Positions 19,448 to 27,423 of a DNA stretch of 41,131 nt are shown in pieces. Source of the stretch: a virus; the IMG/VR virus record IMGVR_UViG_3300030107_005890, positions 1 through 41,131 of that record; one strand, given 5' to 3'. Position 1 is the first letter of the stretch. Each line of letters starts with the position of its first letter. Below the pieces are notes generated by a model that was not told the DNA's origin, ran no database searches, and saw nothing but the letters and a program-made list of their open reading frames with translations. Both the position numbers and the translations under genes were made by a program.

Positions 19448-21660
19448 TTAACATCCTCCGTAGGGCAATCGATGACGCTCGTTATTCCTACCAATGGTTT
19501 AACAGCAACATCTTTCATGAATTGTCTATTATATGACATAATTGGAGTAAATTTAGCACCAACACCAGTCTCAGTATTTATACGATAATCAGGAATTCCA
19601 GAGAATTGTTGATTATAATCATCAGGTATAATGACATCTACAATTCCACCACCAGGAGTAGTAACAATTGGGAAATTAGTCTGACCAATTCCAATAGTAT
19701 CTCCAGGAGTATATCCAATACCAGGATTCTGTGGATAAATGGCAGTAATTATTCCTACAACGTCTGTTCCTATACCAACCTCACCATCACTATCAATAAC
19801 CTCTCCACAGAATCCATAACCAGAAGCCAAAATTATAACATTCTTAATTACACCATCTTTGATTAATGGTCGGACTCTAACACCACTTCCATGACCTGTG
19901 TTATCAACAATAGCAATAGTAGTTCTTTCATCATACCCAGTTCCACCATTGATAACTTCAACAGAAAATATTCTACTATCATTACCAACTATTGGTTTTA
20001 GAACTGCTCCAGAACCATATCCAATCACTTTTGCAATTGGTGGAATACATCTATCGTATTTGAAACCTGGTCGTGGAGGAATTATAGAATCTTGATCTGA
20101 TGGATTTTCATTCTCTTCATTACATGCATTAAATATTGAATTCTTACCACCAAAGAAAGTAATAGTAGAAACTGCTGCTTCAACTGATCCAAGACCTCTA
20201 TCTAACTGATTTGCAGAATCTCCTCCAGTTAATACATCAACACTTTGAAGAACATCTCTAAGTGGAGTTCCATTAACATCATATTCTGGCACATCTCCTG
20301 TATCTCCAAATACATCATCAATACCTGTACCTATACTAGATGATATTCCCGTAAGAGAATTACTAATTCCTGAAAATACATCAACATTATCCAATACACC
20401 TTGCCAATTATCTCCTGCTCTTTCTATTGGAGCATTCCTACCCGATATCCATTCACTATTCCTAGTACATTTCTGTTCATCACATCCAATAAATGAATAG
20501 ATTGCCTTTGCTAAACTACTAACTTTCTTCAATACTCCAGACACCGCACCAATTCCACCCATCAACCAATCCAATCCACCCAGTATTCCACCAAGAGCAT
20601 CCTCAAGAAAACCAAATATCTTCGCAAATATTCCTGATACAAATTGTTCTGCTGCACATAAAGGTCCATTAACAAGTCTACCAAGTAAATTACGAAACAT
20701 ATTCATAATAAAATTACCAATACTACCAATCACATTTTCAAATATACAAAAGATAAGTTTAAGAATCTGTTTAAAACCTAGATGTAAAATTGAGTCTTGA
20801 AGAAATGATGTTATACCAGTAGGAAGAGTTTTAAAAAGACCTAGAAATTGACCAAACAATTTATTCAAAAAACCCATAAGTTTTTTTCTTATTTGTCTAG
20901 TAACTCCCTGAATAATTCCTGATACTTGTTCCTTTATTTTTCTTAGTTGATACTCCATATCAACTACTTTATTTGTAATAGGATCTATAAACTCCTCACC
21001 AATTTTATCAAAAGTTGATGATAATGCAATAAATTCTTGAAGAATTGCTGTTATTGAACCTATTGCACCCTCTCCACAAGTACTAGGTTTTTCAATTCTC
21101 TGTGTAGTAGCATCAGTAAATTGAGCTGATGCATCACTAGCATTGTTGTCCTTTAAAGTTACTCCTCCATTATTTTTTGGAGACTCACCTTTACTCGTTG
21201 CAATAGATGGTGCTTTACCATCCCACGGATCCCACTTTCTAAATTGACTACTTTCATTACTTGCAATTGAACTTGAATTAACTCTATTTTCTACTACTTG
21301 TCTTGGTCTATTGATCAATCCAAAAATAACTGGTTGCTGTGCTTCTTCTCCATCCAAGAAAAAACCAACAGCAGTTTCTCCACCAAGTAATGCGTGAGTT
21401 TCACCTCTACCGCCACCACCGTCTCCACTCATTGAATCCATCATAATATGGGCCCAAGGTAAATCCTCCTCAGGTAGAATAGCACCATCCCAAGGATGAT
21501 ATCCAATGATACGAACCTTTGCTCGATTGGATATCTCACCATTCTTTGCCATTGTTGCATCTGCTTTTTTCCAAACAGATGCATCAGCAACTCGACCTAT
21601 CCACCAAGTGAATCCGTCTCTACCAGTAACATTCGATTTTAATAAAGATTCATCAATCAT
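19444..21660 (-). CDS. gp5: Baseplate hub gp5-like protein without lysozyme domain
   Basis: This is a 738-residue protein. Residues 1-125 match the gp5 OB-fold (GFTWWIGRVADASVW, then KVRIIGYHPWDG, LPWAHIM, and GVFxDGEEAQQPVIFG-like phrase ending in GLINRP). Residues about 190-400 are a long hydrophobic, glycine-rich helical stretch, where T4 gp5 has its lysozyme; no E-D-T lysozyme motif is seen. The C-terminus (about 540-738) has beta repeats with the phrase NGGTGYDERTTIAI. It lies between the gp27-like hub gene and the needle gene, the same order of function as T4 gp27-gp5. Confidence 0.75.
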   Translation of the reverse strand: MIDESLLKSNVTGRDGFTWWIGRVADASVWKKADATMAKNGEISNRAKVRIIGYHPWDGAILPEEDLPWAHIMMDSMSGDGGGGRGETHALLGGETAVGFFLDGEEAQQPVIFGLINRPRQVVENRVNSSSIASNESSQFRKWDPWDGKAPSIATSKGESPKNNGGVTLKDNNASDASAQFTDATTQRIEKPSTCGEGAIGSITAILQEFIALSSTFDKIGEEFIDPITNKVVDMEYQLRKIKEQVSGIIQGVTRQIRKKLMGFLNKLFGQFLGLFKTLPTGITSFLQDSILHLGFKQILKLIFCIFENVIGSIGNFIMNMFRNLLGRLVNGPLCAAEQFVSGIFAKIFGFLEDALGGILGGLDWLMGGIGAVSGVLKKVSSLAKAIYSFIGCDEQKCTRNSEWISGRNAPIERAGDNWQGVLDNVDVFSGISNSLTGISSSIGTGIDDVFGDTGDVPEYDVNGTPLRDVLQSVDVLTGGDSANQLDRGLGSVEAAVSTITFFGGKNSIFNACNEENENPSDQDSIIPPRPGFKYDRCIPPIAKVIGYGSGAVLKPIVGNDSRIFSVEVINGGTGYDERTTIAIVDNTGHGSGVRVRPLIKDGVIKNVIILASGYGFCGEVIDSDGEVGIGTDVVGIITAIYPQNPGIGYTPGDTIGIGQTNFPIVTTPGGGIVDVIIPDDYNQQFSGIPDYRINTETGVGAKFTPIMSYNRQFMKDVAVKPLVGITSVIDCPTEDVK

Positions 21661-21926
21661 TCGTCATATACCCTACATTCAAAAGCATCTGGATGGTTAT
21701 CACAATACACTTCTAAGTGCTTGTCTTCATGTCTCGTGTGCCAATCATTTATAGTGGCATCATTCTTATCTATTACATCTGATTTATGGTATTCATCATA
21801 TTCTGCATGAACATCCTTTAGATCTTCAACACTATACTCTAACATACCATGATTAATATGTTCCTTATGATCTTTTGGATCAAGATAAACTTCATGTTCT
21901 AGATCGTGTTTGATTTGATTTGTCAT
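21657..21926 (-). CDS. Hypothetical acidic, histidine-rich protein, 89 aa
   Basis: This short protein is very rich in D, E, H and Y (for example EYDEYHKSDVIDKNDATIND) and has two cysteines near the end (YCDNHPDAFECRVYDE). It overlaps the gp5-like gene by 4 nt and follows the gp27-like gene, so it belongs to the hub operon. No family is recognised. It could be a small hub accessory or a chaperone. There is a clear purine-rich site (GGAGATAAAAC) before the ATG. Confidence 0.6.
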   Translation of the reverse strand: MTNQIKHDLEHEVYLDPKDHKEHINHGMLEYSVEDLKDVHAEYDEYHKSDVIDKNDATINDWHTRHEDKHLEVYCDNHPDAFECRVYDE

Positions 21927-21958: not shown

Positions 21959-23263
21959 TTAAGTACCATAGACTCCATAAGAATCTCGTATCAATTTAAG
22001 TGAACTAGTATTTTGATTCTTAGAGAAGTGATGACACACCTCTTTAATCAAGTAGTTTCCACTCCTCTTGGTGTCGATATCCTTTCCTTTGCCAGCTTCC
22101 AAACTAGGAAGTTCACAATGAATAATATCTCCAGCCATTAAATTTATATTACATGGTACAAGAATATTTAGTGACTGTGTAAACAATAAGTTATATCTTG
22201 AGAATGATTTTGCCATATCACTCGCATCTCTCGAAGAAGGATTCTTTAAATTCGTCACTCCATGATCTGTAGTTCTCATAATTTGCCTAGATGGATAACT
22301 CCCAAACATCTCTGATGGTGTATCCATACCATCACCTCCAAGTGTAGCACCCAATTCTTTTGGTAAATCATATTTGTAGTAACTAACTTCATGTGATGCC
22401 ATATTAATACTTACAGTCATATTAGAATACATTCCCACACGTAATGATTTCCTAACATCAATATTTTTATCCAAAGAATAATGAATAATTTGAAAGACAT
22501 TCTCAGAAGAACCTGCTTCTATCGCACCAAATCCTTTGGTAATATACTTTGCTTTATATCCAGTATCACTTCCAACACTAGTATTAGAAACTAAACTTTC
22601 TACACTCTTAAAATTAAATCCATTCCTATTCTGATAAAAAAGATATCCACCAGTTCCTTTTGCTTCTCCAAATTTGGTTCCATCTTCTCCACTATCTCCA
22701 GACTTACTAACAGATACTGGCACAGACTTTGGTGCTAACCATTGAATAACATTAAACGGTTTCCTTGCACTACCATAAAAAGAATAAGAATTTCTAGTTG
22801 TTTCTATATTTTTCTCATCAAACTTAGTTGTATGTAAATTATCCTTTAATATATTTTTTACATGTTCACTTATGGATTGACTATCTTTATACTTTTTAAA
22901 ACACCTAGCAGTTTCATTTGAAAAATTTTCCCTTGTGGTCAAATATAAAGTGAATATTTCACTCTGTCTTTCTGTATTGACATTCCCCACTTTATAAACA
23001 TACATTGCATCTTCACCATCCAGTATAAATTTACCACTAGGTAAACTTAATTCACATGTAACTTTTTCACCACCTCTTATTGGTAACTCACTTACAATAT
23101 TATAAGAAGACATAATATCAATTGTCATTGATACTGCTGGTTCTAAAATATCCTCATAGTAATTAATAGAAACAGTATTTTCAGTGAGATCTATTCCCTT
23201 TCCACCAGAGATAGGTTCAATCTCCAAGTATTCTACTTTAATTGCACCTAATATATTTGACAT
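21959..23263 (-). CDS. Baseplate hub protein, gp27-like
   Basis: This is a 434-residue protein. The N-terminal half has alternating beta strands as in hub proteins of contractile tails (gp27/VgrG type): INYYEDILEPAVSMTIDI followed by LPIRGGEKVTCEL and FTLYLTTRENFSNE. The centre holds NVIQWLAPKSVPVS, and the end has GDIIHCELPS and SGNYLIKEVCHHF, like the last hub domain. T4 gp27 is 391 residues. Its place immediately before the gp5-like gene supports the call. It joins the 415-residue gene by a 1-nt overlap. Sequence similarity to T4 gp27 itself is weak, so this is a functional assignment. Confidence 0.65.
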   Translation of the reverse strand: MSNILGAIKVEYLEIEPISGGKGIDLTENTVSINYYEDILEPAVSMTIDIMSSYNIVSELPIRGGEKVTCELSLPSGKFILDGEDAMYVYKVGNVNTERQSEIFTLYLTTRENFSNETARCFKKYKDSQSISEHVKNILKDNLHTTKFDEKNIETTRNSYSFYGSARKPFNVIQWLAPKSVPVSVSKSGDSGEDGTKFGEAKGTGGYLFYQNRNGFNFKSVESLVSNTSVGSDTGYKAKYITKGFGAIEAGSSENVFQIIHYSLDKNIDVRKSLRVGMYSNMTVSINMASHEVSYYKYDLPKELGATLGGDGMDTPSEMFGSYPSRQIMRTTDHGVTNLKNPSSRDASDMAKSFSRYNLLFTQSLNILVPCNINLMAGDIIHCELPSLEAGKGKDIDTKRSGNYLIKEVCHHFSKNQNTSSLKLIRDSYGVYGT

Positions 23264-24510
23264 TAGTAACCGTCCAACTTATTAATTAATAGTTCATCGT
23301 ACATATTATTTAATGGATTATCTATTGGGTAATCTATACCAATTCCATTTTCATCAGAGAAAGAAGTTCCAAAAGGAATTGATGATTGACTATTATCAAT
23401 CACATTTCCACTATCAGAAGAAAATGGAACAATAACATTTTGAGGAGAATTATTTTCATTCAGTGTTTTAACATCATTATTCTTACTCTTAGCTTCCATT
23501 TTATTAAAAGCACCAGTTATTCGATCTGCAATATGACCAAAAGTTTTTCTACCAATATGTGATCCAGCGAATCCTCCTGCTACACCACCAGCAAGTACAG
23601 AAAAACCATAAAGAGGTCTTGCACCAGGAAAAGGAGCAAGTAATAATGGAGATGCTACTTTTGCTGTAACTGCACTACCTAATTTAAATCCTCCCCCAAA
23701 TCCATACCAACTACCAACTCCTTCTGCTACTGCACCAGTAACTGCTTGATCTACACTCTGACCTTCCTGTAATCTATCTACTGTTGTATGTGCAACATCA
23801 GCAACCGCAAGAACCCCTCCAACCTTAGTCGCAGTACCTCTAAGAAATCCCTTAAATCCTTTGGTTAGTTTTACTTTCTTAAGAGGATTCTTCTTTAGTA
23901 ATTTCTCTGTCTTTACTTCTATTTTCTTGGGTATCGAAGGTGCTTTTCCAAGATTCTTTGAAGAAGTAATCTTACCCTTATCAATTTTTACCTTACCAGG
24001 TTTAGTTCCTTTATTTACTTTCTTTAATGACTTACTCTTAATTTTTGTCTTCTTAGTGGGACCACCAGTCTTTACTTTCTCTATCTTAAACGTTTTATTC
24101 TTTGGTAAATCAATTTCTGTTGGCATTCTACCACTAAAGTTAGTAATAGTACGAATTTGATCTTGCCCTAATGTTTTTTGAATATTATCAATCCTTTGAT
24201 CTCCCTCACCTTCAGCATTTTTAATAGCGTTATTAATACCTACTCCTGCTGCGACTCCACCAATACCAAGTAAAGCAAGTAACCAAGGGAACCCACCACC
24301 ACTCTTAGATCCTTCAGAAAGTTTCGTTATTTCTCTTCTAGATGGTGCCTTTATCTTCTTTAATGTTCTATTACTAGACTCAATCCATTTTAAAAAAGTT
24401 TTAAGATCAGATTTCTTTCTAAACTTAAGTGCAGATACAACAGGAGTTGAAGGAACTGTTCTAAATTTCCTAGACTGGGCTTTTATTGAAGGTTTCTTTA
24501 CTTTAGCCAT
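23263..24510 (-). CDS. Candidate tape-measure/hub-associated protein B, 415 aa
   Basis: A basic N-terminus is followed by a hydrophobic glycine-rich segment (residues about 70-95, FPWLLALLGIGGVAAGVG) and a very lysine-rich stretch (about 140-230). A second glycine/alanine-rich hydrophobic region (about 235-335) ends in GGVAGGFAGSHIG. The tail contains IVPF and SIPFGTSF (378-384). The neighbouring 417-residue protein has the same kind of ending (IVPFDTSF), suggesting related architecture. Position between the gp26 chaperone-like genes and the hub gene is where tailed phages keep the tape measure. No direct family match is recognised. Confidence 0.6.
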   Translation of the reverse strand: MAKVKKPSIKAQSRKFRTVPSTPVVSALKFRKKSDLKTFLKWIESSNRTLKKIKAPSRREITKLSEGSKSGGGFPWLLALLGIGGVAAGVGINNAIKNAEGEGDQRIDNIQKTLGQDQIRTITNFSGRMPTEIDLPKNKTFKIEKVKTGGPTKKTKIKSKSLKKVNKGTKPGKVKIDKGKITSSKNLGKAPSIPKKIEVKTEKLLKKNPLKKVKLTKGFKGFLRGTATKVGGVLAVADVAHTTVDRLQEGQSVDQAVTGAVAEGVGSWYGFGGGFKLGSAVTAKVASPLLLAPFPGARPLYGFSVLAGGVAGGFAGSHIGRKTFGHIADRITGAFNKMEAKSKNNDVKTLNENNSPQNVIVPFSSDSGNVIDNSQSSIPFGTSFSDENGIGIDYPIDNPLNNMYDELLINKLDGY

Positions 24511-24515
24511 AATTA

Positions 24516-25769
24516 TTATCCAATTATATTAGCATGAATTTTCATTCCAAAAGTCTTGGCATCAAAATTACTTGAAGCAATCCATCTCACTCCTGGATTA
24601 CCACCACCAGAAGTAGAAGGAACAATACCATCTCCACCACCAGAAGTATTTCTACTTGCAAATGAAGTATCAAATGGCACTATATTAGTATTAGATGAAG
24701 CACTTCCATCTGTCTTACTCAATTCATCAACCTGTCTTATAAGTTTGCTCTGATCTACTTCTATACTATTCAAATTTTTAATTTTATTATTTTCCTCTAA
24801 TCTGATCTTTTTTTCTGCTTCAAGAACTTGTCTTCTAGTCTCTCTATTATACGCACTCAACTTAGGATTGAAAGGATCATCATTCATCATGTCCTTAAGT
24901 TCCTGTGGCATATTTTTCATTCTCCTCAATCTAATACTTCTCAATGATTCATCCTTTCTTTTATTAAATCCACTACTCAAAGAATTAACTTTTTCACGTT
25001 CTGCCTCTACTTCTTCAAATATTTTTTGTTGCTCTTCTGTTCTACCACCACGCCTACTAGTTCTCATCTCTTGTCTACTTCTATTCTCAGCTATACCTTT
25101 AGTATTCATTCCAGCATCTATCAATCTCTGATCCAATTCATCATGTTTCTTACTATATTCTTCTCCTCCAGTAATGACGTTATCTCGGAAAGCTCCTCTA
25201 GTATCTGTTATCCATTTTGGAAGTAAAGCCTTTATATTATTCCACAAGTAACCAACTATTGTGGAGGATGATTCTCCAATGAATTTAAATACTGCCTCTC
25301 TTAACTTTGGATTATTCAGTAAAGCAAGAAAAGATCCTGCTGCAAGCAATGCTAACACTATAGGATTAGTCAACAAATCAGTCAAACCACCTATCAATCC
25401 AACTATTCCACCAAGTCCACCTAATATTCCACCACCTCCAACACTTCGGCCTTTAGTCTTTAATCCATCTACAATATCTCCCAATGCAAGTTTAACAAGT
25501 TTAGCAGTTTCAAAGGTATTGACTAATGAATCTCTAATCATTTTCAAATTACTTCTCAGTAACTTTGCAGTTCTCTTTGATCCAAAAACTTTCAAATAAT
25601 TAGATACAAATGTTCCCTCATCTTCACTATCTGATTTCTCTAATTTTGCTGGTAATAAAGACTTCATCCTACCAACAACAGAACTTCCCACATTCTTAAC
25701 ACCAGATGAGAAACTCTTTGCTCCCATCTTGGTTCTTGAAAATAAATTGGGTTTAATAAAAGACTGCAT
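24516..25769 (-). CDS. Candidate tape-measure/hub-associated protein A, 417 aa
   Basis: Residues about 1-110 are helical and basic. Residues about 113-155 are strongly hydrophobic and glycine-rich (GGILGGLGGIVGLIGGLTDL, then IVLALLAAGSFLALL). Residues about 195-345 are highly charged and predicted coiled coil, and the end is glycine-rich with IVPFDTSF (363-370). A hydrophobic patch plus a long helical part is typical of tape-measure proteins. It starts 5 nt after the short gene downstream of gp26, which fits the usual order chaperone then tape measure. The assignment rests on context and composition, not on a family match. Confidence 0.6.
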   Translation of the reverse strand: MQSFIKPNLFSRTKMGAKSFSSGVKNVGSSVVGRMKSLLPAKLEKSDSEDEGTFVSNYLKVFGSKRTAKLLRSNLKMIRDSLVNTFETAKLVKLALGDIVDGLKTKGRSVGGGGILGGLGGIVGLIGGLTDLLTNPIVLALLAAGSFLALLNNPKLREAVFKFIGESSSTIVGYLWNNIKALLPKWITDTRGAFRDNVITGGEEYSKKHDELDQRLIDAGMNTKGIAENRSRQEMRTSRRGGRTEEQQKIFEEVEAEREKVNSLSSGFNKRKDESLRSIRLRRMKNMPQELKDMMNDDPFNPKLSAYNRETRRQVLEAEKKIRLEENNKIKNLNSIEVDQSKLIRQVDELSKTDGSASSNTNIVPFDTSFASRNTSGGGDGIVPSTSGGGNPGVRWIASSNFDAKTFGMKIHANIIG

Positions 25770-25774
25770 GTTAC

Positions 25775-25951
25775 TTATGAATTCTGTTGTTGAATTTTTG
25801 CATTCTCTTCTTCAATATACTGATTTAATAATGTGAGATAGATATCTCTTTCCCACGGCATCATGTTTTCAATCTCTGTTAATGAGTATTTATGGTGTTG
25901 CATCAAAGAAAAATTAATTTTAAAGTATGACTCAAGATCAATATGAGACAT
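25775..25951 (-). CDS. Short -1 frame gene after gp26, probable frameshift extension
   Basis: This 58-codon frame (begins MSHIDLESYFKINFSL, contains MMPWERDIYLTLLNQYI) starts 2 nt after the gp26 stop, in the -1 frame relative to gp26. Its frame stays open upstream through the slippery heptamer at 25969-25963, so it can be translated as an extension of gp26 (301 residues in all). No Shine-Dalgarno sequence precedes the ATG. The PWERDIYL phrase resembles C-terminal parts of tail-assembly chaperones. It occupies the slot of T4 gp51, but I cannot show homology. Confidence 0.7.
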   Translation of the reverse strand: MSHIDLESYFKINFSLMQHHKYSLTEIENMMPWERDIYLTLLNQYIEEENAKIQQQNS

Positions 25952-25969
25952 ACTTAAGCGAAAAAATTT
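25923..25969 (-). promoter_or_regulatory. Predicted programmed -1 ribosomal frameshift signal
   Basis: The mRNA reads A-AAU-UUU (25969-25963) in the gp26 frame, a canonical X-XXY-YYZ slippery heptamer, at gp26 codons 238-239. After a 7-nt spacer a hairpin follows (25955-25923): 7 bp AAGUAUG/CAUACUU, one U-U mismatch, 4 bp CUCA/UGAG, and a 9-nt loop. Slipping back one base reads TTT CGC TTA AGT and then the ATG of the short gene without a stop. The arrangement matches the G/G-T frameshift that makes tail-assembly chaperones in many tailed phages. Confidence 0.75.
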
Positions 25970-26679
25970 CCCAATCCCTCCAATGTCACTTCACTTTCTA
26001 CTTCAGTATTTGGATTGGTCACTGTTAATGTATGAGTTAACTTAGGCATTGTCTCAAAGAAAGTTTCAATCTCTTTAAATTGAGATGAATTTAAACTCTC
26101 AAGCCATTCTCTAAGTTCTTTTTTGGTGCAATCAGATGTAGCCCATGAATCATCACTACTATAAACCATTTCCATACATGATGCGATAACATCAAATGAT
26201 TGATCTAACTCTTCAAGTTTATTGTCTGATACCTCAAAATTATTTGAAATGAATTCATCCATTGAAGGATACTTCATACGCAAAGTTAATTCATGATCTA
26301 ATACAATATCTTTATTATGTCCTTCAGGTTTTATAACATTGATTTCATCAATGTAAACTTTTACAGGAACAGTAGTCTCATTATCATCAGGACAAGTAAC
26401 AACCAAATCTAATGCTTCACCAATAGATTTTCCACGAATATTTAAAAATAGATATTCAATATCAAACGTAGGTAATTGCTCAATCTTTACTCCTCTAGTA
26501 GTAATACAATCCTTTAATATTTTTTTAATAGCATTTGCAATACTTTTAGTATCCTGACTTTCTAAAGCAAGGATAAGAACCTTCTCTTCTCTAACTAAAA
26601 AAGGACGATACTTTACTTTCTTACCAGTAGAAGGTAACTCCAACTCATAAGTTGGAGTGGAAATTTTTGGTAAAGGCAT
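25954..26679 (-). CDS. gp26: Baseplate hub assembly protein gp26 (probable tail chaperone)
   Basis: This 241-residue protein matches the T4 base-plate protein family (gp26): the N-terminus YELELPSTGKKVKYRPFLV followed by EEKVLILALES, a middle LPTFDIEYLFLNIRGKSIGE, and a cysteine-containing strand VVTCPDDN. T4 gp26 is 208 residues and is required for hub assembly. The C-terminal region (about 150-235) is acidic and helical. A frameshift signal at its last codons could extend it by 62 residues. It is preceded by a CTAAATAA late-promoter candidate and a 33-nt gap. Confidence 0.85.
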   Translation of the reverse strand: MPLPKISTPTYELELPSTGKKVKYRPFLVREEKVLILALESQDTKSIANAIKKILKDCITTRGVKIEQLPTFDIEYLFLNIRGKSIGEALDLVVTCPDDNETTVPVKVYIDEINVIKPEGHNKDIVLDHELTLRMKYPSMDEFISNNFEVSDNKLEELDQSFDVIASCMEMVYSSDDSWATSDCTKKELREWLESLNSSQFKEIETFFETMPKLTHTLTVTNPNTEVESEVTLEGLGNFFA

Positions 26680-26712: not shown

Positions 26713-27423
26713 TTAAACTTCAGACAAATGTTTTTCAACAGTATGACGTAAAAACATAAAGTTTACTGTCAATTCTAAAACAGTACTTCCTTCATATGTT
26801 AAAGGAACTGTGTTAATAGATTCTGGAAAACAATCAATAAATCTATATGTTAATAGTGGAACATTATTTAATATACTATTAGGATCATTTGGATTCCTCA
26901 CAAGATCTCTTTCAAATTTAGTGATAGATATATCTCTCTTATAAGAATCAGGATATCTAAGACGATAATGAGAAGATCTATCTCTATAAGTATTCAATTG
27001 ACCTTGCTTTTGTCCTTCATATCTTCCAGTAGTATCATAGATTGGATTAATATAATTAACCCACTCTTCAAATAAACGAACTACATTATAATCCCTATCA
27101 ACATAAAAAGTTAAACCAAACATATCATAGACACGAAATGTAGGAAACCTTTCTATAGTTCCTTGACGACTTCCTCTTTCCTCACCATAAAATAATTGGG
27201 AACTCGGTAGAGCTGCTTGGGAACAAAGAAAATCATAACTCTCTCCAGTACTATCAACACTATCAAATATACCACAACGAGTTAAATAACTAAGTAAGTC
27301 CTGATCACCCGTATTTCTATTGAGATTTAATGATACTTTAAATTGACTTGATATTGCAACCTTCGTAAGAATATTGCTTACATCATTCATATTAATATAT
27401 AAAGATTCAGTGGATACAGACAT
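26713..27423 (-). CDS. Tail-tube-like baseplate protein (probably gp54, tube initiator)
   Basis: This is a 236-residue protein. The layout resembles a tail-tube fold: FKVSLNLNR strand, CSQAALPSSQLFYGEERGS loop, FRVYDMFGLTFYVDRDYNV followed by RLFEEWVNYINPIYD, then SITKFERD and FIDCFPESINTVPLTY, and finally LTVNFMFLRH. The pattern of a target strand, a lipid-like FYVD strand and the FEEWVN helix is seen in gp19/gp48/gp54 tube-related proteins. The nearby gp48 and gp53 genes favour gp54, the platform on which the tube starts to polymerise. It diverges from gp4 over a 36-nt intergenic region. Confidence 0.65.
   Translation of the reverse strand: MSVSTESLYINMNDVSNILTKVAISSQFKVSLNLNRNTGDQDLLSYLTRCGIFDSVDSTGESYDFLCSQAALPSSQLFYGEERGSRQGTIERFPTFRVYDMFGLTFYVDRDYNVVRLFEEWVNYINPIYDTTGRYEGQKQGQLNTYRDRSSHYRLRYPDSYKRDISITKFERDLVRNPNDPNSILNNVPLLTYRFIDCFPESINTVPLTYEGSTVLELTVNFMFLRHTVEKHLSEV

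Follow-up and report, generated by a model that had tools for sequence, protein, structure and literature searches.

A conserved U UUU UUC heptamer predicted to direct -1 frameshifting from gp26 into gp51 in T4-like phages

Introduction

The DNA considered here, called the window, is the whole stretch of 41,131 nucleotides of IMG/VR record IMGVR_UViG_3300030107_005890. It belongs to a marine T4-like phage. On its minus strand, gp26 and the 58-codon frame of gp51 very probably constitute a single tail-assembly chaperone unit, the long form of which would be produced by -1 frameshifting at the heptamer U UUU UUC. Sequence comparison shows support for this prediction in the conservation of the motif, its phase, the -1 relation of the two frames, codon bias, the loss of gp51 start codons and the fact that T4 gp51 is homologous to the fusion. 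We infer the occurrence and frequency of slippage in infected cells, the part played by the stimulators and the action of the proteins as chaperones. An earlier note on this DNA had proposed a chaperone pair expressed by -1 frameshifting; the comparison of motif, phase and codon bias strongly supports this idea, but the heptamer then named was the wrong one.

Organization of the gp26/gp51 locus

The genes follow one another on the minus strand in the order tail-tube-like gene, gp26, 58-codon ORF, 417-aa ORF and 415-aa ORF. The features relevant to translation are the following.

26713..27423, minus strand: tail-tube-like gene, upstream of gp26 (PF23849, E 9e-17; phrog_45, E 7e-31)
25954..26679, minus strand: gp26, 241 aa, zero frame, predicted short chaperone isoform (TAC-N) (PF12322, E 1e-73; phrog_150, E 9e-79)
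25977..25981, minus strand: probable stimulator GGAGG, resembling a Shine-Dalgarno sequence and placed 10 nt before U UUU UUC (codon bias)
25963..25969, minus strand: A AAU UUU, the heptamer of the earlier note, in phase (canonical X XXY YYZ in 5/217 relatives)
25960..25966, minus strand: U UUU UUC, the slippery heptamer conserved among relatives, read as (AA)T TTT TTC in the zero frame (T6N in phase at 217/221 junctions)
25923..25955, minus strand: downstream hairpin of 7 bp, U.U and 4 bp with a 9-nt loop, possible stimulator (MFE, z)
25775..25951, minus strand: gp51 frame, 58 codons from ATG, -1 frame, predicted C-terminal part of the long isoform (phrog_634, E 2e-28)
24516..25769, minus strand: 417-aa ORF in tape-measure position, with one hydrophobic segment (hydrophobic peak at residue 132)

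The last codons of gp26 are TTG GAG GGA TTG GGA AAT TTT TTC GCT TAA. As had been noted, the next ORF lies exactly in the -1 frame and stays open through the heptamer: this frame is open from 25990 to the gp51 stop codon and is bounded upstream by a TGA at 25993-25991. It was also correctly pointed out that gp51 has no ribosome binding site, a Shine-Dalgarno sequence being absent directly before its ATG. The description of a "short ORF" holds for its 58 codons but falls short of its identity, since it belongs to the recognized gp51 family. In addition, gp51 matches columns 241-278 of the 282 columns of phrog_150, the gp26 family (E 1e-6). This match gives a first hint that some members of the gp26 family may carry both parts in one chain.

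Frameshifting would proceed as follows. Most ribosomes would terminate at the gp26 stop codon and release the 241-aa short form. A minority would slip back by one base at U UUU UUC (25966-25960), where two tRNA-Phe would re-pair, thereby bypassing the zero-frame stop codon located one codon later and continuing into gp51; the resulting long form, gp26-gp51, would have 301 aa. The slip rate would probably be raised by pairing of GGAGG, 10 nt upstream, with the 16S rRNA tail, and probably also by the downstream hairpin. The mixture of short and long forms would then assist tail-tube subunits in assembling around the tape measure. Recomputation of the predicted fusion (240+3+58 = 301 aa) gave the length and the junction peptide, NFFRLS, already proposed; the junction is the same for either heptamer.

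Conservation of the slippery heptamer

Junctions between gp26 and gp51 were gathered from IMG/VR and from named phages, yielding 221 distinct cases. T TTT TTN is found in the -1 slippage phase at 217 of them, a count to be read with the shared, hence non-independent, ancestry of the relatives in mind. The variants are TTTTTTC (211), TTTTTTT (4), TTTTTTA (1) and TTTTTTG (1). The in-phase motif occurs in Caulobacter phage Cr30, Pseudomonas phage pf16, Stenotrophomonas phage YB07, Aeromonas phage Ah1 and Vibrio phage D481, as well as in Rhizobium and Ochrobactrum phages, and it is kept where the identity of gp26 to the query is as low as about 23-36%. The four junctions without the motif are L067, L118, L135 and that of Vibrio phage K469 (L175). 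The first three were set aside as counter-examples because their gp26 frames stop before the junction, which leaves K469 as the sole true lack of the heptamer among the 221; the -1 relation is still present there.

Two of these exceptions may be described further. In K469 (L175, 2402-3405), gp26 ends with ACG CTT TTT GCG TAA and the downstream ORF overlaps it by TAATG, possibly reflecting a switch to translational coupling. At L118, near position 1900, gp26 is deprived of its last residues and of the slippery site, and gp51 is intact thereafter; either an assembly error or a real deletion would account for this.

Codon choice at the site was examined in a non-redundant set of 99 sequences (<80% identity). 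The Phe-Phe pair of the site is written TTT-TTC in 93/99 sequences, as compared to 1/100 elsewhere in the same gp26 genes, and the codon preceding it always has T as third base. Neither the TTT-TTC choice nor the T-ending codon is called for by protein coding alone. Of the 24 genes checked in the window, no other has an in-phase T6 heptamer at most 33 nt from its stop codon.

The earlier note had placed slippage at A AAU UUU. This heptamer is indeed in phase (A AAT TTT, 25969-25963), but the conserved one is T TTT TTC, which overlaps it and lies 3 nt further downstream (25966-25960). A AAU UUU was rejected as the operative site on the grounds that its phase is canonical in only 5/217 relatives; it is almost certainly not the main heptamer. 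Alignment across relatives, the check suggested at the time, thus recovers an in-phase slippery run at 217/221 junctions, though in the form T TTT TTN. Loss of the heptamer or of the -1 relation in close relatives had been named as contrary evidence: the -1 relation is kept in 217/217 motif-bearing loci, and A AAU UUU is mostly absent.

It may be added that the window contains three overlapping in-phase slippery heptamers at 25960-25972 (minus strand), G GGA AAT, A AAT TTT and T TTT TTC. Relatives generally retain only the last one.

A Shine-Dalgarno-like element upstream of the heptamer

A spacer of 10 nt separates T TTT TTC from the GGAGG that precedes it in the window. The conserved Leu-Glu-Gly that precedes the heptamer is coded in such a way as to yield GGAG. 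The Glu codon at the site is GAG in 70/89 cases, whereas in gp26 bodies GAA outnumbers GAG by two to one. Leu-Glu pairs read GGAG in 46/81 cases at the site versus 5/81 control pairs (Fisher p 1e-12, uncorrected for ancestry). GGAGG is favoured beyond codon usage and is a probable stimulator. In E. coli dnaX, -1 frameshifting likewise involves a Shine-Dalgarno-like stimulator about 10 nt before the heptamer, the same kind of spacing as here, together with a downstream hairpin. The dnaX case differs by its A AAA AAG heptamer, by concerning a host gene and by a frameshift product that is shorter, not longer.

The conserved homopolymeric T6 run could also be envisaged as a site of RNA polymerase slippage, whereby mRNAs would lose one base or gain two. 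However, T6 is a short run for such slippage; it is followed by C in 211/217 loci and is seldom longer, and the preference for GGAG ahead of it speaks for slippage by the ribosome. Moreover, where the PRFect paper (PMC10885494) paraphrases the other mechanism, it speaks of a separate fused gene. Polymerase slippage is therefore a highly improbable origin of the long form.

The downstream hairpin

The hairpin of 7 bp, one mismatch and 4 bp reported earlier was confirmed at 25955-25923, the mismatch being U.U. Its MFE is -11.7 kcal/mol, with z between -4.0 and -4.2 relative to dinucleotide shuffles, at most 1/200 of which are as good. The spacer had been given as 7 nt; counted from the conserved T TTT TTC, it is 4 nt to the stem and 6 nt to the first G-C pair.

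Among relatives, this hairpin is only partly conserved, so that it does not stand as a defining element of the signal. Across 68 relatives, about 77% of the cells of the stem are paired, and the stem is lost or replaced in several lineages, some of which carry other hairpins in the same place. The covariation score of the stem is higher than in all 500 shuffles. Compensatory changes, which had been proposed as a check, exceed column shuffles (22 cells versus 8.5) but not slid controls. RNAalifold gave no consensus fold over the 68 sequences and a search of Rfam returned chance-level matches only. The idea of a universal hairpin was abandoned in view of the RNAalifold result and of the equal double changes in slid controls. 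The hairpin may possibly stimulate slippage; in our view, the upstream element is the better supported candidate stimulator of the two.

As a separate observation, the long stem is lost at L047, L050, L051, L059, L061 and L070, where a short palindrome immediately follows the heptamer (e.g. GGTTCATATGAACC, GATCCATATGGATC).

Access to gp51 with and without a start codon

The gp51 frame is the -1 frame in all 217 motif-bearing relatives. It remains open for 58-71 codons beyond the heptamer, except at L003 (33) and L074 (48), the two loci where it ends short. An ATG in this frame is present near the junction in 194/217 loci, generally 2 nt past the gp26 stop codon; only GTG or TTG is available in 8, and none of these in 15. 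In the latter 15/217 loci, which include ACG-2014b, ACG-2014d, Methylophilales phage Melnitz-3 and Rhizobium phage IC12, ATG, GTG and TTG are all absent before the conserved gp51 core. Because the core is kept there without such a codon before it, frameshifting is the likely route to gp51 in these loci.

Where the ATG is kept, a separate gp51 could be produced as well. One may even imagine that this separate protein is the sole form of gp51, produced by translational coupling: after terminating at the gp26 stop codon, ribosomes would re-initiate on the ATG located 2 nt further on, which the hairpin would hide until gp26 is translated. The frequency of a gp51-frame ATG near the junction (194/217), the TAA-GT-ATG spacing, suited to re-initiation, and the location of the ATG within the 5' arm of the hairpin all agree with this model. 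Yet it leaves unexplained the T6 motif, the synonymous bias (93/99 versus 1/100) and the exact phase; it also has to face the 15 loci lacking a standard start before the gp51 core, and T4 gp51, in which the gp51 domain is fused to a gp26-like domain. Exclusive coupling is thus improbable, and -1 frameshifting at U UUU UUC remains the preferred reading.

In the records of S-CAM1, S-WAM2, ACG-2014b, ACG-2014d and S-PRM1, gp51 is unannotated. None of the annotated phage records examined that contain a gp26/gp51 junction carries a frameshift mark.

Chaperone function and the tape-measure position

T4 gp26 and gp51 have been reported to figure among the chaperones of hub assembly, and gp51 to be required although absent from the final particle (PMC3004832). 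By analogy with related systems, where this function is established, gp26 and its extended form would act as tail-assembly chaperones. The predicted fold of gp26 has a mean pLDDT of 81. Its two best PDB matches are to the HK97 tail assembly chaperone 2OB9; they are non-significant (E 0.16 and 0.52; rmsd 15 A) and may serve as a pointer to a chaperone fold, not as proof. A sequence search of solved structures found no related chain, and a fold search with T4-type gp51 gave nothing significant.

The pair lies downstream of a tail-tube-like gene and upstream of ORFs in tape-measure position. The earlier statement that it stands just before the tape-measure gene therefore fits by position, but no sequence match identifies the downstream ORFs. 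The 417-aa ORF has no Pfam or PHROG family above the cut-off, and neither it nor the 415-aa ORF has a clear tape-measure match by PHROG and BLAST. In Cr30, a downstream gene bears a tape-measure annotation.

Two neighbouring observations deserve mention. The 417- and 415-aa ORFs stand in tandem at 23263-25769 (minus strand), each with one hydrophobic segment, and a single ORF of about 1,000 aa occupies their place in relatives such as S-CAM1 and S-RIM14; the two are possibly a split tape measure. Besides, the tail gene cluster includes an ORF of 89 aa (21657-21926, minus strand) that encodes a CP12 domain (Pfam E 8e-8) and overlaps the gp5-like gene by 4 nt.

Relation to known systems and to T4

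The slippery heptamer of phage lambda is G GGA AAG, against U UUU UUC here. The lambda gpG/gpGT and P2 gpE/E' pairs likewise associate a short form with a -1 frameshifted long form (Levin 1993; Christie 2002; Xu 2004). Their genes lie between those of the tail tube and the tape measure, the latter being assigned here by position only. The lambda and P2 proteins belong to another family by sequence, and it is in gp26 loci that a Shine-Dalgarno-like upstream element is favoured. In Pseudomonas phage Adele (Vandenendeviridae), the TAC locus described in PMC12846349 also combines a conserved poly-T (GTTTTT) with an open -1 frame, in 56 alleles; this is another phage family, and the case is inferred there by the same kind of comparison.

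The earlier view that such frameshifting is undescribed for T4-like gp26 cannot be maintained. Both the PRFect paper (PMC10885494) and the Adele paper (PMC12846349) cite Vladimirov et al. 2022 for the identification of tail-chaperone genes in T4-like phages. In the former's account, frameshifting is replaced in some T4-like phages by a short gene together with a fused one; in the latter's, poly-T stretches are known -1 signals of T4-like TAC-N genes. We read the short and fused genes of Vladimirov, Gautam and Davidson (2022) as gp26 (TAC-N) and gp51 (TAC-NC), in agreement with the T4 genes described below; the T4-like chaperones of that work would then belong to the same two families as those of the window. 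Since the Adele paper credits poly-T -1 signals to that work, the predicted gp26/gp51 frameshift is a well-supported further case of a signal type already reported for T4-like phages. What is added here is the corrected slippery site and the newly quantified upstream element, perhaps already published.

T4 itself has two distinct genes, 26 and 51, with divergent orientations. PF12322 is common to the window gp26, T4 gp26 and the N-terminal part of T4 gp51 (residues 1-201, E 4e-52), and residues 210-246 of T4 gp51 match the marine gp51 domain (hhalign E 2e-6). Both parts of the predicted fusion are thus homologous to T4 gp26 and T4 gp51. T4 gp51 being made of a gp26-like domain followed by a gp51 domain, T4 encodes the predicted long product as one gene, whereas the phage of the window would need a frameshift. 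Aeromonas phage Ah1, also a member of the Straboviridae, retains the T6 motif. It may be proposed, with about even chances of being right, that the U UUU UUC frameshift and its Shine-Dalgarno-like stimulator are ancestral in T4-related phages and obligatory in lineages with a start-less gp51, T4 gene 51 being a derived duplication that replaced frameshifting.

Concluding remarks

Frameshifting would explain how, in marine T4-like phages, gp51 is found without a ribosome binding site and often without a start codon or an annotation. The heptamer offers an exact signal for mending gp26/gp51 annotations in phage records. Finally, the frameshift on the one hand and the duplicated gene of T4 on the other would provide a natural contrast for studying what determines the proportion of the short to the long chaperone.
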